Source: Thiomicrorhabdus cannonii
GTDB lineage: Bacteria; Pseudomonadota; Gammaproteobacteria; Thiomicrospirales; Thiomicrospiraceae
Assembly: GCF_013391695.1 (NCBI RefSeq)
Contig: NZ_JACBGH010000007.1
Coordinates: 1 to 64,000 of the forward strand
DNA: 64,000 bases
Direction of reading: 5' to 3'
In this document: in pieces, positions 42,003 through 54,276 of the stretch
Layout: the number at the start of each line of letters is the position of its first letter
How positions within the stretch are numbered: position 1 is the stretch's first letter
The notes under the pieces: model-generated
The model's input: only the letters and a program-made list of their open reading frames with translations
The model's database searches: none
Told to the model about the DNA's origin: nothing
Translations under genes and position numbers: made by a program

Positions 42003-42320
42003 ATGAAAACCGTCATGATGCCATTGAGCGCCCTGTTTGTCGGCGCTTTGAGCCTGATGCCGCTGGCCGCGCACGCCGACGTCATCAGCAACGCCGAACT
42101 ATCGGCCACCACCTGTTTTATGTGCCACGGCCCCGAAGGCAAATACAGCGGCGGCGCCATTCCGCCGCTGGCTGGCTATCCCGCCAACATCATGGTACAG
42201 CAACTCAAAGACATGAAAAGCGGCAAGCGCCCCTCAACCGTCATGCAGCGCCACCTGAAGGCGTATTCCGACGAAGAGATTGAAGCCCTGGCAAGCTACT
42301 TTGCCACGCTCAAGCCTTAA
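42003..42320 (+). CDS. fccA: Flavocytochrome c sulfide dehydrogenase, monohaem cytochrome subunit
   Basis: A 105-aa precursor with a Sec signal peptide cut near AHA-D26. The mature protein is about 80 aa with one haem site, C38-F-M-C-H42. It lies 35 bp upstream of the flavoprotein gene, so it should accept electrons from FccB during periplasmic sulfide oxidation. Monohaem forms of about 10 kDa are known in several sulfur bacteria; dihaem forms occur in others. A GAAGGGAA site precedes the ATG. Confidence 0.9.
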   Translation: MKTVMMPLSALFVGALSLMPLAAHADVISNAELSATTCFMCHGPEGKYSGGAIPPLAGYPANIMVQQLKDMKSGKRPSTVMQRHLKAYSDEEIEALASYFATLKP

Positions 42321-42355
42321 CGCCCTTGCCGCCCTTTCAACAGGAACAGACCGAC

Positions 42356-43648
42356 ATGATTCAATCCAATCGTAGAACTCTCATCAAAGCCCTGGCCGCT
42401 GCCGGTCTGGGCGCACCGCTGGCCGCCACGCTAAACGGCTGCAGCACCCCGTTCAGAAACGCCCGTCCGCACGTTGTCGTCATCGGCGGTGGCTTTGGCG
42501 GCGCCACGGCCGCCAAATACCTGCGCCGTTTCAGCCGCAACCAGATCGACGTGACCTTGATCGAGCCCAAACAAACCTACATGACCTGCCCCGGCAGCAA
42601 CTGGTATCTGGCCGGCCTGACCGATGTGCCGAGCCTCACGCACGACTATGAAGCGCTTAAAACCCAACACGGCGTGAAGGTGATTCACGACACCGTCAGC
42701 CGCGTGGATGGCGACGCGCAAAGCGTGTCCCTGCAAAACGGCGAGACGCTGCATTACGACCGTCTGGTGATGTCGCCCGGCATTGACTTTGTTTACGACG
42801 CTGTCCCCGGTTACTCCGAAGCCGCCAGCGAAGTGCTGCCGCACGCCTATCAGGCCGGCCCGCAGACCGAGCTGCTGTACCAACAGATTCGTGAAATGCG
42901 CCAGGGCGGCACCTTCCTGATGATCGCCCCGCCCAATCCGTTCCGCTGCCCGCCAGGGCCTTACGAGCGCGTCAGCATGATTGCCGCCTACTTCAAGGAA
43001 CACAATCCCACGGCGAAAATCATCGTGCTCGACCCCAAATCCAAATTCTCCAAACAGGCGCTGTTTATGGAGGGCTGGCAGGAACTTTACGGCAGCATGA
43101 TCGAGTGGTACGGCAAAAACGACGGCGCCATCGTTGAAGAGCTGGACGTAGCAAACAAAACCGTGAGCTGCGAACTGGATACCTTCAAAGCCGACGTGAT
43201 CAACGTGATTCCGCCGCAAAAAGCCGCCAAAATCGCGTTTGATACCGGCCTGACCGACGCCACCGGCTGGTGTCCGGTCAATCAGGAAACCTTTGAATCC
43301 ACACAGAAACGCGGCATTTTCGTGATTGGCGACGCCTCGATTGCCGGACAGATGCCGAAATCGGGACACTCCGCCTCCAGCCACGGCAAAATGTGCGCGG
43401 CGGCGATTGTCTCCCAGCTTAACAACTGGGCCATGCCGCGGCCTAAAAACGCCAACACCTGCTACAGTCTGGTAGGCGCCCACTACGGCATCAGCATCGC
43501 CGGGGTGTACGAAATGCAGGACGGCATCATCAAAGAGATCGCCGGCGGCGTCAGCCAGATGGGCGCTTCGCAACAAGTGCGCAAAATGGAAGCCGAATAC
43601 GCGCGCGGCTGGTACAAGAGCATTACCGCCGACGTTTGGAAAAGCTGA
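42356..43648 (+). CDS. fccB: Flavocytochrome c sulfide dehydrogenase, flavoprotein subunit
   Basis: A 430-aa FAD protein that oxidises sulfide to sulfur. The Rossmann motif VVVIGGGFGGATAAKYL lies at 40-56. Cys78 (MTCPGSN) matches the covalent FAD-linking position, while Cys198 (FRCPPGP) and Cys306 (GWCPVN) match the redox pair of the family. The N-terminus has a Tat-like motif (NRRTLIK) followed by a hydrophobic stretch that ends in a lipobox-like LNGC29, so a lipid anchor is possible. The start is supported by CAGGAA 9 bp upstream. Confidence 0.93.
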   Translation: MIQSNRRTLIKALAAAGLGAPLAATLNGCSTPFRNARPHVVVIGGGFGGATAAKYLRRFSRNQIDVTLIEPKQTYMTCPGSNWYLAGLTDVPSLTHDYEALKTQHGVKVIHDTVSRVDGDAQSVSLQNGETLHYDRLVMSPGIDFVYDAVPGYSEAASEVLPHAYQAGPQTELLYQQIREMRQGGTFLMIAPPNPFRCPPGPYERVSMIAAYFKEHNPTAKIIVLDPKSKFSKQALFMEGWQELYGSMIEWYGKNDGAIVEELDVANKTVSCELDTFKADVINVIPPQKAAKIAFDTGLTDATGWCPVNQETFESTQKRGIFVIGDASIAGQMPKSGHSASSHGKMCAAAIVSQLNNWAMPRPKNANTCYSLVGAHYGISIAGVYEMQDGIIKEIAGGVSQMGASQQVRKMEAEYARGWYKSITADVWKS

Positions 43649-43802
43649 CAAAACTCAGGTGATTTAACACCACCGGAACGCCCAGGCACGAATCGCACAG
43701 ACCTCACCGTCCAAACGCTTCGCGCCTTGGTGTTTTGGCCTCCTGGTGGTTCAAACCTTGTTCCGGCATCGTGCCAAAACTCTTCCCCAAATTCTCCCCA
43801 AA

Positions 43803-43820
43803 ATTTTCAACAGGCCGGGT
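43803..43820 (-). repeat. Dispersed repeat, copy 13 (exact), sharing a base with a stop codon
   Basis: Exact core on the minus strand with GAAAATT extension. The TAA of the TlpA-fusion gene (43820-43822) merges into it in the same way as copy 10. Confidence 0.9.
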
Positions 43821-45073
43821 TACGGCTGCTGCAACGCCTCTTCTATCAGCGTCAGATGTTCTGCTGCATCCCATTGCGTGCCGCCAAACAGCGCGTAACG
43901 GATTTGTCCCTGCTTGTCGATCAGATAGGTACTCGGATAGGCAAACACCTGCCACTCCTTCACCGCCGAACCGCTCGGGTCGAGCAACACCGGGAAATTC
44001 ACCGGATGAGTCTGCAGAAACGCGCTTATCGCCGCCGCCGATTCCGCCAGATTGACCGCCAGAATCTCAAACGGCGCCTCTTTTAAGCGGGTTTTCAAGC
44101 GCGCCATCGACGGCATTTCGTGCACGCACGGCGGACACCAGCTCGCCCAGAAATTCAGCAACACCACCTTGCCGCGATAATCGCTTAAAGCGACCGTGTT
44201 ACCCTGCTGATCTTGCAACTGCAAAACGCGATCCTGCGGGCCCTGATACGGCTGCAATTCGGTGGAGCGATGGCTGGCGGCCTTCTGCGGCGCTGCGGAA
44301 GCGACCGGCGCCATACGCCGATCCGCAGACATATAGGGCAGTTGCAACCCTATTAGGGTTTGCAGGCGCGGGGCCAACTGTTCAGCCGCGGTTTTTTCTA
44401 CCGCCAGTGCGTCCGCACGGAAATAGAAGCGGTCGCGCACCTTGGGCTGCAAAACGGTAAACACATCGCTGCCGGCCTGTTCAAATTGTTTTGACAGCTC
44501 CGCCAAACGCCAACGCCAGGGCGACAACTCCGCCTGCCAAATCGTCACCGGCAAATTGACGCTGGCGACCTCGTTCCAGTACTGCGCCGATTCCCCCGCT
44601 TGCGGCGTATTCACATACAAATTGGGATTGATCAAAACCAATCCCAAGTGGTTCAAGGATTCCTGCTGGAAAGCGCTCACGCCGCGCACCGCAAGCTGTG
44701 CCGCCTTGTTGGCCGCCACAATCCACAGCGGCTTGCCATCCTTGCGCGCCTCTTTAATCAGCGCCTGCACCCAGGCCGTCGGCACCTGATCGACCGCGCT
44801 CGGCGCCGGCGCCAAGAACAGCGGTTCATACAGATCGCTAAACCAGCTTTCAATGCCGTTTTTTGCCAGCCTTTCCGCGACCTTGCGTTCCTGCGACAAC
44901 ACGCCATATTCGGACGGCAGCCATAGCAGCCGCGCCTGAGCCGGCGCCTCTGCAGAAACGACCTCAATGTTCAATTCGGCATCCGCAAGCGGCAAGGGGC
45001 GCGTCTCGGCCTGAACCGGAAGCAGGCTCCAGCTCCATACGACAAACAGCAATTGAATAATGGTACGCGCCAC
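43820..45073 (-). CDS. Two-domain periplasmic protein: hydrolase-like domain fused to TlpA/ResA thioredoxin
   Basis: A 417-aa protein with a signal peptide (about 1-23). The N-terminal part (about 38-240) looks like an alpha/beta-hydrolase fold but has ANKAAQLA near residue 121 where a GxSxG nucleophile elbow would be expected, so it is probably non-catalytic. The C-terminal part (about 278-415) is a TlpA/ResA domain with WCPPC (Cys313, Cys316) and the cis-Pro loop AYPSTYLID. The GTG start is chosen because GAGGAG sits 8 bp upstream. It converges with the FCSD operon. Confidence 0.85.
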   Translation of the reverse strand: MARTIIQLLFVVWSWSLLPVQAETRPLPLADAELNIEVVSAEAPAQARLLWLPSEYGVLSQERKVAERLAKNGIESWFSDLYEPLFLAPAPSAVDQVPTAWVQALIKEARKDGKPLWIVAANKAAQLAVRGVSAFQQESLNHLGLVLINPNLYVNTPQAGESAQYWNEVASVNLPVTIWQAELSPWRWRLAELSKQFEQAGSDVFTVLQPKVRDRFYFRADALAVEKTAAEQLAPRLQTLIGLQLPYMSADRRMAPVASAAPQKAASHRSTELQPYQGPQDRVLQLQDQQGNTVALSDYRGKVVLLNFWASWCPPCVHEMPSMARLKTRLKEAPFEILAVNLAESAAAISAFLQTHPVNFPVLLDPSGSAVKEWQVFAYPSTYLIDKQGQIRYALFGGTQWDAAEHLTLIEEALQQP

Positions 45074-45225
45074 GGCCTTCTCCTCAAATGACACCCAATG
45101 CGGGTTACGCCATTGTAGAAGAGATGGCCTGTAAAAAAAACATCACGTCGCTGTCATCTCGGCGTCAAACAGCCGCCTGATAATCCAGTCTGAATCCATC
45201 CCGAAAAACACAGGTAATCACAAGA

Positions 45226-46962
45226 ATGCTGAATCTGGAAAAAGCGCTGAGCGACAAATTCCCCGAACTGAGCCGCAAGCCCGGCAGTAAATGGCTGGTC
45301 AAACTCATCAAGGCATTGAGTCACGAAGAGGAGATCAACCAGTTCATCCTCAGCCACCAGCACCTGCGCGGCTTTGCCTTTCTGGATGCGGTGCTCAACC
45401 ACTTCAACTTCAGCTACAAGGTCAGCTCCCGCGCCCTGCAGCGCATTCCCGCCGAAGGGCGCGTCATTATCGTCGCCAACCACCCCATCGGCTCGCTCGA
45501 CGGCCTGTCGCTGCTGAAAATGGTACGCAGCGTGCGGCCCGACGTGCGCATCGTCGCCAGCGACCTGCTCAATCATATCGAACCCCTGCAATCGCTGTTT
45601 CTGGGCGTGGACAATATCAGCGGCAAAAACAGCCACAAAACCCAGTTCAAGGCGATGCTGGGCGCGCTGCAAAACGACGAAGCCGTGATTATTTTCCCTT
45701 CCGGCGAAGTCTCGCGCATCCGCCCCAACGGCGTGCGCGACGGCAAATGGAAAGGCGGCTTCCTCAAACTGGCCGAAAAGACCAAAGCGCCGATCGTGCC
45801 GATTTATGTCGATGCCCGCAATTCCGCGCTGTTTTACAGTCTGTCCGCGCTTTACAAGCCGTTAGGAACCTTGATGCTGGTGCAGGAGATGTTCAATAAA
45901 GATCATCAGGAAATCCAGTTCCATATCGGCAAGGCGATTGCCTGGAAAACCGTCGCCAAACTGGATTTGCCGGCCAGTACCCTCGCCAACCGTTTCCGCA
46001 AACACCTCTACCAACTCGACAAGGAGGCCAAAGCCGCCAAAAAAGGCAAGCCGGCGCTGTTTGAAACGCTGGAGACCGTGGCCCATCCGGTTGACCGCAA
46101 GGCCTTGAAAAAAGCCCTCAAGGCCAGCCAGCTGCTCGGGCAGACGCAGGACGGCAAAAAAATCTATCTGTACGACTTTGCGCCGGACTCGCCGGTGATG
46201 CACGAAATCGGCCGGTTACGCGAACTGACCTTCCGTTCGGTCGAAGAAGGCACGGGGCACTCGCTGGATCTGGATGCCTATGACAGTTACTACCGTCACT
46301 TGGTGTTGTGGGACGAAGAGGATCTGGAAATTGTCGGCGCCTACCGTATCGGCGAATGCAGCGCCATTATGGATACGCACGGCAAACAAGGGCTTTATTC
46401 CAGCACGCTGTTTGACCTTAAAGCGGAAATCGAACCCTATCTGCCGCACGCCATCGAGCTGGGGCGCAGCTTTGTGCAGCCGCGCTACTGGGGGATGCGC
46501 AGCCTGGACTATCTATGGTACGGCATCGGTGCCTATGTGGCGCAGCATCCTGACATCAAATACCTGTTCGGCCCGGTTTCCTTGAGCGACGCCTACCCGC
46601 AAAACGCCAAGGAATTGATTATCGGTTTTTATGAACAGCAGTTCGGTTCGCATCAGGACCTGGCCTGTGCAAAACGCCCGGTCAGCGTCAGCGAAGCCAA
46701 TCGGCAGATTGCACAGACCCTCTTCAATGAGGACTACAAAACCAGCTTCAAGAAACTCAATGCCCTGCTCGATTTGGAAGGCGTTAAGGTTCCCACCCTG
46801 TTCAAACAATACGCCGAACTGTGCGAGGACAAAGGCTGCCGTTTTATCGATTTCAGCATCGACCCCGATTTCGGCGGCTGCATCGACAGTCTGATTCTGG
46901 TGGAACTGGATAAAATCCAGGCCAAAAAGAGACAGCGTTACCTGACCCCTATCGGGGTTTAG
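45226..46962 (+). CDS. OlsF-like bifunctional acyltransferase (PlsC plus GNAT)
   Basis: A 578-aa protein. The N-terminal half (about 60-250) is a PlsC-type acyltransferase with ANHPIGSLDG (His86, Asp92) and FPSGEVSR. The C-terminal half (about 310-480) matches OlsB-like N-acyltransferases, with RELTFRSVEEG, DLDAYDSYYRHLVLWD and GRSFVQPRYWG. This layout matches OlsF, which makes ornithine lipids in Serratia and relatives. The TAG stop comes from the end of an inserted MITE-like sequence, so the original C-terminus may have been longer. Confidence 0.8.
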   Translation: MLNLEKALSDKFPELSRKPGSKWLVKLIKALSHEEEINQFILSHQHLRGFAFLDAVLNHFNFSYKVSSRALQRIPAEGRVIIVANHPIGSLDGLSLLKMVRSVRPDVRIVASDLLNHIEPLQSLFLGVDNISGKNSHKTQFKAMLGALQNDEAVIIFPSGEVSRIRPNGVRDGKWKGGFLKLAEKTKAPIVPIYVDARNSALFYSLSALYKPLGTLMLVQEMFNKDHQEIQFHIGKAIAWKTVAKLDLPASTLANRFRKHLYQLDKEAKAAKKGKPALFETLETVAHPVDRKALKKALKASQLLGQTQDGKKIYLYDFAPDSPVMHEIGRLRELTFRSVEEGTGHSLDLDAYDSYYRHLVLWDEEDLEIVGAYRIGECSAIMDTHGKQGLYSSTLFDLKAEIEPYLPHAIELGRSFVQPRYWGMRSLDYLWYGIGAYVAQHPDIKYLFGPVSLSDAYPQNAKELIIGFYEQQFGSHQDLACAKRPVSVSEANRQIAQTLFNEDYKTSFKKLNALLDLEGVKVPTLFKQYAELCEDKGCRFIDFSIDPDFGGCIDSLILVELDKIQAKKRQRYLTPIGV

Positions 46963-53481: not shown

Positions 53482-54276
53482 TCAAGCGCTTTTCTGCAAC
53501 TGCGCCAGCTGCAGGCGTTCGCGCTCGTCAAACAGCCGTTTTGAAGCCAGATACACCGCAATCAAAGTCCCCAGACCGGTGGAGGTGGCAATCAGAAACA
53601 TCACCATAATCTGGTATTTGACCGCCTCGGCGGGATCGGCGCCGGCCAGAATCTGCCCGGTCATCATCCCCGGCAGCGAGATAATGCCGGCCGCCGCGAG
53701 CATATTGATGACCGGAATCATTGCCGTGTGCAGACTCTGCTCGCGGATAAACGCCATCGACTCCTTGGCGGTTTTGCCCAGCGCCAGTTGCGCCTCCAAC
53801 TGGGCGCGCAACTGCACCGCATTACGCGTCAGCGTATCCAGCCCCAAGCCGATCGCCGTCATACTGTTACCCAGCAACATGCCCAGCAACGGAATTGCAT
53901 ACTGCGCCTGATACCAGGGTGTCGGCTCGATCACAATGGTGAGCACGCCCACCAGCAACAGCAGCGAGGTCAGGGAGATGGAAAACAGGCCGATCCACAC
54001 ACTGCCGCCTTTCACAAAACGGTAGTGCTGGCGCTTGGCAATCTCGTAAGCAGCCGCCGCCAGCATCACCGCGCCGACCAGCGCCACCCAAATCCAGTTT
54101 TCGGCATAGAACACCCAGCTCAACCACACACCCATCAGCAGCAGTTGCGCGGTCATGCGGACATTCGCCCACGCAAACTGTTTAACATGAGTGAAGCCGT
54201 TCAACCACAGCAGCACACCCAACAGCACCACCAGTACCGATAGCGTCGCCAGATCCCAATAACTCAGATGAATCAT
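53482..54276 (-). CDS. fetB: FetB-type ABC permease (UPF0014)
   Basis: A 264-aa membrane protein with about seven segments. The UPF0014 signature is clear: NGFTHVKQFAWANVRMTAQLL cut short here, IPLLGMLLGNSMTAIGL near residue 137, and ISLPGMMTGQILAGADP near 207. E. coli FetAB is an iron exporter that raises resistance to peroxide stress. Its start overlaps the fetA stop by 4 bp (ATGA). Confidence 0.88.
   Translation of the reverse strand: MIHLSYWDLATLSVLVVLLGVLLWLNGFTHVKQFAWANVRMTAQLLLMGVWLSWVFYAENWIWVALVGAVMLAAAAYEIAKRQHYRFVKGGSVWIGLFSISLTSLLLLVGVLTIVIEPTPWYQAQYAIPLLGMLLGNSMTAIGLGLDTLTRNAVQLRAQLEAQLALGKTAKESMAFIREQSLHTAMIPVINMLAAAGIISLPGMMTGQILAGADPAEAVKYQIMVMFLIATSTGLGTLIAVYLASKRLFDERERLQLAQLQKSA

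Follow-up and report, generated by a model that had tools for sequence, protein, structure and literature searches.

A TlpA-like thioredoxin paired with a non-catalytic alpha/beta-hydrolase-fold domain in Thiomicrorhabdus cannonii belongs to an unnamed family that co-occurs with soxB

In a 64,000-nucleotide stretch of the Thiomicrorhabdus cannonii genome (contig NZ_JACBGH010000007.1, positions 1 to 64,000; hereafter, the window), we found a minus-strand gene that combines a probable signal peptide, an alpha/beta-hydrolase-fold domain and a thioredoxin domain of the ResA/TlpA type (Table 1); the plus frame over the same 43820-45073 interval is interrupted by stops. The reading frame offers GTG codons at 45073 and 45094, of which the former is the likely start, giving 417 residues, since GAGGAG lies just 5′ of it and the GTG at 45094 is upstream of that site. 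Judging by its N-terminal residues and the helix modelled there, the product is probably secreted. The gene stands alone, being convergent with fccB (end at 43648, 172 bp off) and divergent from olsF on the opposite side. The latter (window 45226-46962, plus strand) encodes OlsF, a bifunctional ornithine lipid synthase (827.7 bits, cut-off 620). A scan of 43600-45300 gave no match to a sigma-70 promoter.

Table 1. Features of the pseudo-hydrolase/TlpA gene and its convergent neighbours, in window coordinates
Feature	Position	Strand	Details and basis
Pseudo-hydrolase/TlpA gene	43820..45073	-	417 aa, GTG start; ORF list, Pfam, reading of the upstream site
Probable signal peptide, residues 1-22 (VARTIIQLLFVVWSWSLLPVQA)	45008..45073	-	By eye, with N-terminal helix in the model
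Alpha/beta-hydrolase-fold domain, residues 27-251	44321..44995	-	AlphaFold2 models, structure match
Former nucleophile elbow AANKAA, residues 120-125, Asn122 at the nucleophile position	44699..44716	-	hhalign to dienelactone hydrolases, residue counts
Conserved loop after strand 6, NPNLYVNTPQAG, residues 149-160	44594..44629	-	Family conservation
Former acid loop QAELSPWRW, residues 180-188, Ser184 at the acid position	44510..44536	-	hhalign, residue counts
Former histidine loop PKVRDRFYFRADA, residues 210-222, Asp214 at the His position	44408..44446	-	hhalign, residue counts
ResA/TlpA thioredoxin domain, residues 278-417	43823..44242	-	Pfam, matches to solved structures
Redox motif C313-P-P-C316, then Glu319	44126..44137	-	Translation, family alignment
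fccA and fccB (flavocytochrome c sulfide dehydrogenase, FCSD)	42003..43648	+	Convergent neighbour; partnership not conserved

The C-terminal redoxin part is the only region of the protein with a Pfam match over its cut-off (AhpC-TSA, 104.6 bits against 26, residues 285-393), and this match, together with the CxxC motif, identifies it as a thioredoxin of the ResA/TlpA type. ResA, TlpA and CcmG are among the nearest solved chains, the CxxC is kept in 172 of the 172 TlpA domains counted (identical copies included), and the Glu after it (E326 in a 424-residue numbering), which we take to correspond to ResA Glu80, is invariant in 65 sequences. The original prediction of an intact WCPPC TlpA domain fused to a hydrolase-like domain is therefore confirmed. 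ResA, TlpA and CcmG (DsbE) are known as single-domain proteins. Our protein shares with them the thioredoxin fold, the WCxPC motif, the Glu after CxxC and probable secretion, but differs in the pseudo-hydrolase domain that is nearly always joined to it and in scoring under all of their NCBIfam cut-offs (bits against those needed: ResA 110.4/170, TlpA 84.8/230, StoA 72.4/210, DsbE 63.6/123.15).

The N-terminal region had been described as having the appearance of an alpha/beta hydrolase, and the structure prediction proposed as a check bears this out. AlphaFold2, run on a 65-sequence family alignment, produced confident models of the full chain (mean pLDDT 94.4, pTM 0.89) and of the hydrolase-fold domain by itself (mean pLDDT 94.9, pTM 0.92), the latter with the fold of the alpha/beta hydrolase superfamily. 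Its best structure match is the dienelactone hydrolase 2o2g (Z 20.3, 195 residues, rmsd 2.4; VIA-align), and alpha/beta hydrolases stand on top among the 50 matches listed, with a thioesterase, lipases, feruloyl esterases and other dienelactone hydrolases following 2o2g. By sequence, the first ~250 residues match no Pfam or NCBIfam model over its cut-off; the isolated domain yields a single weak Pfam row under its cut-off and no match to the dienelactone hydrolase family PF01738. Among 13 relatives compared with Pfam, two touch Hydrolase_4 (best E 2.1e-5) and single members touch four other families. A sequence search of solved structures returned only two matches, at the chance level of E 0.9, and neither the PHROGs search nor a plasmid search at E <= 1e-30 returned any. 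Kinship to a second hydrolase group was unsupported (hhalign probability 0.2%). DUF3530 (PF12048) proteins also have a hydrolase fold, and here too the profile comparison, made with a three-sequence profile, lent no support to kinship (probability 0.5%).

What sets the domain apart is the fate of its catalytic residues. The triad was mapped by hhalign of the family profile against nine dienelactone hydrolases, together with predicted secondary structure, at modest probabilities (E 5e-5 and 66.7% for the family profile, 45.6% for a second profile). The catalytic Cys aligns with Asn122, the catalytic Asp with Ser184 and the catalytic His with Asp214, such that Asn, Ser and Asp stand in the window protein where alpha/beta hydrolases carry the nucleophile-acid-His triad. 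Across 156 distinct sequences, the nucleophile position holds G (74), N (39), D (27), A (8), E (7) or S (1), and is thus neither Ser nor Cys in 155; the acid position holds S (111), G (34), T (9) or A (2), and never Asp or Glu; and at the His position 145 sequences have Asp and not one has His. Hence, relative to dienelactone hydrolases (PF01738) and other alpha/beta hydrolases, the domain preserves the fold and the order of the elbow, acid and His loops, but all three catalytic positions are replaced. This agrees with the earlier reading of a hydrolase fold devoid of catalysis and amends its statement that there is no nucleophile elbow: the elbow itself is kept and it is the nucleophile that has been exchanged. 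By eye, two of three DUF3530 relatives aligned are likewise without Ser at the elbow; these DUF3530-type proteins (L262, L263) show Gly where the nucleophile Ser is expected, a hint that catalytic loss may recur in such hydrolase folds.

Conservation in the domain is highest in the loops at the C-terminal edge of the sheet, with a mean entropy of 1.9 bits versus 2.11 for strands, 2.55 for helices and 2.53 for other loops (Mann-Whitney p 5e-5). Arg, Trp and acidic residues abound in the consensus of the loops around the old active site (WLPSEYG, AxNKAA/ASGRGA, PNLYxxTPxPG, SPWRW and RDRFYFRPDA). That the triad is lost while conservation peaks in just these loops indicates that the site has been kept for something, which is hardly ordinary ester hydrolysis. 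The pseudo-hydrolase domain thus clearly illustrates the reuse of an enzyme fold that has lost its catalytic residues.

A single-sequence search (E <= 0.01) located the domain in 45 of 62 genomes of the window's own taxonomic family, and a profile search in 44 of 62. In an even sample of the class, with the best seven or fewer candidates scored per genome so that misses are possible, it occurs in 80 of 369 genomes and 60 of 271 genera (E <= 0.001, three weak matches included), and so the architecture is not a chance product. A phylum sample contained it in 2 of 329 genomes, both from the same class as the window, the share of class members in that sample not being stated. A scan of a genome collection with one conserved motif (RDRFYFRPD-like), of which the best 80 of 101 confirmed relatives were taken, named Thioalkalivibrio, Halothiobacillus, Thiomicrospira, Thiomicrorhabdus, Sulfurivirga and Sulfuriflexus, in addition to many bins labelled just Chromatiales, Ectothiorhodospiraceae, Acidiferrobacteraceae or Gammaproteobacteria.

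Throughout this range the pairing with TlpA is nearly constant. The family loci and motif-scan loci overlap by ten proteins that appear twice, so that 154 domain-carrying ORFs represent 144 distinct ones and 146 loci represent 136; TlpA lies in the same chain in 150 of the 154 (140 of 144 without identical copies), the four exceptions being L219 and L223, which are split genes, L078, a fragment at a contig end, and a fragment of 106 aa. All eight stand-alone domain genes examined, a set that left out other short-frame domain matches (e.g., G094, G103, G109, G255, G297), have a TlpA gene immediately downstream on the same strand, and in each case the beginning of that TlpA gene looks like a leader. 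A midpoint-rooted tree of 156 domains resolves into groups of 121 (with the window protein) and 35 members, with support of 0.954 and 0.659. Several Thioalkalivibrio loci (L220, L224, L229, L233, L240) display two fusion paralogues in opposite orientation a few kb apart, one per tree branch; as each tree group holds one copy in 7/7 two-copy loci of this genus, the duplication is probably old. Although thioredoxins of the TlpA kind are familiar, the libraries searched (Pfam, NCBIfam) hold no model that covers the hydrolase-fold domain of the window protein at its cut-off, in line with the original prediction, which did not recognize the pairing as a named family. Searches of open-access papers, judged by title and the opening of the abstract, yielded no description of the architecture. 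The proteins thus constitute a widespread family without a name.

The neighbourhood of the gene is far less constant. The original prediction had placed the gene beside FCSD and drawn from this an argument for its role; the two are indeed adjacent in the window, but the arrangement is convergent (fccB on the plus strand ends at 43648 and the gene on the minus strand at 43820), and so they do not form one operon. Moreover, fccB lies near the gene in only 1 of 146 loci (1 of 136 distinct), which is the window itself, 27 of the 146 having less than 2 kb on one side. Three close relatives have a patatin gene (107, 316 and 376 bp away) in the place of fccAB, which therefore looks like a local insertion. 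Elsewhere in the class sample, one genome (G328) has both genes within about 4 kb, with positions read by eye. As far as the sample shows, the FCSD neighbourhood of the window gene is accidental, and the argument from position fails. Across 42003-43648 of the window and contigs 8 and 13, the genome shows three matches to the flavin-binding family of FCSD together with a pair of full-length SoxB genes (637 and 634 aa). In part of the genus (L053, L054, L064, L066, L071, L078) the gene follows directly on fetB at 0-2 bp, and in the first five of these loci the spacing is 1-2 bp on the same strand, which suggests a fetAB-thioredoxin operon there; in the window, fetB (53482-54276) is about 8.4 kb from the gene. 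Among wider relatives, hemF is near the gene in 20 loci and a rubredoxin-reductase-like gene in 18. We judge the fetB, hemF and rubredoxin-reductase-like neighbours to be housekeeping genes.

A much stronger signal emerges at the level of whole genomes. The same 369 class genomes were searched for the hydrolase domain, FCSD, SoxB and SoxC, with three weak domain matches left out (G166, G288, G369; 80 reduced to 77) and the SoxB set fixed at 152 genomes after leaving out ten matches with E >1e-50 (148 are over the curated cut-off). soxB occurs in 72 of the 77 genomes that carry the domain versus 80 of the 292 that lack it (odds ratio 38; p 2e-27, a p-value that ignores ancestry), or in 74 of 80 if all domain matches are kept against the same SoxB set. 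The five domain genomes without soxB comprise two that are <80% complete (G297, G395), one at 87% (G267) and two at 98-100% (G318, G108). The matches lie in lineages of one class and hence shared ancestry may inflate the link, a concern lessened by the family-level count, where soxB is found in 39 of 40 families holding the domain (178 families were taken in; labels run to f182). Conversely, about half of the soxB genomes (80 of 152) do without the domain; therefore, Sox does not require it, and it would be an accessory rather than a core part. FCSD is found in 44 of 77 genomes with the domain versus 71 of 292 without, and in about equal shares within soxB genomes (42/72 versus 43/80). SoxC likewise shows no difference within soxB genomes (14/72 with the domain versus 17/80 without), so that no link to truncated Sox, i.e., to the absence of SoxC, is seen. 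The proposed association with sulfur-oxidation genes is accordingly absent from gene neighbourhoods and present as genome co-occurrence with soxB; the periplasmic sulfur-redox role suggested earlier loses its FCSD argument and gains separate support from this co-occurrence.

The co-occurrence is not accompanied by physical linkage to sox genes. We read soxB loci from 40 of the 72 domain-positive genomes and from 20 domain-negative ones with a search aimed at TlpA-like and thioredoxin proteins; soxB has a TlpA-like gene nearby in 1 of 40 and 0 of 20, respectively, and the single case was not scored as a domain carrier. These counts offer no contrast in favour of the protein substituting for a sox-cluster thioredoxin. 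A query of the DsbA/Thioredoxin_2 type had no match in the same loci, and seven candidates from a motif scan resemble, on visual inspection, chance ORFs. With a TlpA-like gene near soxB in just 1 of 60 loci, there is room for a dispersed helper such as the hydrolase-TlpA protein.

According to published work on the alphaproteobacterial models, wrong disulfides can inactivate SoxYZ, and a thiol-disulfide reductase in the periplasm keeps it active (PMC10451225): in Paracoccus and relatives, periplasmic SoxS maintains SoxYZ by reducing false mixed disulfides, and in Rhodovulum SoxV reduces SoxW (PMC10451225), with soxS, soxV and soxW located with the sox genes in those organisms (PMC5748708). We tentatively propose, at somewhat less than an even chance, that the window protein acts in the periplasm as a Sox-linked thiol-disulfide reductase of the ResA/TlpA type, in concert with a dead alpha/beta-hydrolase domain, and has a job like that of SoxS/SoxW in a different architecture. 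The near-constant pairing, probable secretion, intact CxxC and soxB link are all in accord with a Sox-linked reductase that carries a recognition domain. The proposed role resembles that of SoxS/SoxW of Paracoccus and Rhodovulum, a periplasmic thiol-disulfide reductase serving Sox, but those genes sit with sox genes, whereas the window-type gene does not.

The main rival is that the protein is a dedicated reductase for the maturation of cytochrome c or CuA/Sco, in the role of CcmG/ResA/TlpA, with the extra domain binding apocytochrome; the soxB link would then arise via SoxXA and other c-type cytochromes of sulfur lithotrophs. We regard this as somewhat unlikely, though it is in keeping with the nearest solved chains of the C-terminal domain and the invariant Glu after CxxC, and is favoured by the split domain/TlpA pairs, four of which (L251, L252, L253, L255) have a divergently transcribed cytochrome c gene alongside. 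At L251, a phosphonate-type binding protein gene also follows. However, CxxCH genes show no enrichment beside the fused forms (3/462 within 1.2 kb versus 12/978 beyond 3.5 kb), the domain follows soxB much more closely than it follows FCSD, which is itself a flavocytochrome, and the thioredoxin scores under the ResA, TlpA and DsbE cut-offs.

Less probable still is a function in sulfane or polysulfide handling, wherein the rebuilt pocket would bind a thiosulfonate, polythionate or polysulfide and the CxxC domain would accept or release sulfur, feeding Sox or sulfur import. The conserved Arg and Trp of the old active-site loops would suit an anionic sulfur ligand, and SoxS is discussed in two papers as a possible donor of SoxYZ-bound sulfur to SoxT (PMC10451225, PMC11582611); yet the domain is not commoner in soxB genomes without SoxC, where SoxYZ-bound sulfane must exit otherwise. 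We consider it quite improbable that the protein is a periplasmic disulfide reductase of general use against oxidative or metal stress, with no tie to sulfur oxidation: the position directly after fetB in part of the genus and, among broad relatives, beside hemF and the rubredoxin-reductase-like gene speaks for such a role, but the role does not predict the near-confinement to soxB genomes. A partnership with FCSD in sulfide oxidation, as first suggested, has the adjacency in the window, the G328 case and the overall FCSD association on its side, but is largely refuted, and hence most improbable, given the single locus of 146, the convergent genes and the lack of an FCSD excess within soxB genomes.

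Returning to the Sox-linked reductase, we envisage that the hydrolase-fold domain would recognize a client or ligand through its rebuilt pocket, with its conserved loops rich in Arg, Trp and acidic side chains, and that the WCPPC domain would then reduce a disulfide, mixed disulfide or sulfane bond on that client. With less certainty than these two steps, the client might be a member of the Sox thiosulfate-oxidizing system, most likely the Cys-carrying SoxYZ, in which case the protein would do in its hosts the job of SoxS/SoxW in Paracoccus and Rhodovulum. A bolder and rather unlikely version is that the rebuilt active site, with its near-invariant Asp for His and its RDRFYFRPDA, SPWRW and PNLYxxTP loops, binds or converts a Sox sulfur intermediate, such as the thiosulfonate arm of SoxYZ, that is passed to its own CxxC partner; if true, the protein would count as an unrecognized part of thiosulfate oxidation in Gammaproteobacteria. 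A family whose presence nearly implies that of soxB, and in which a thioredoxin is joined to a rebuilt domain, is a concrete and testable candidate for the upkeep of SoxYZ in this class.
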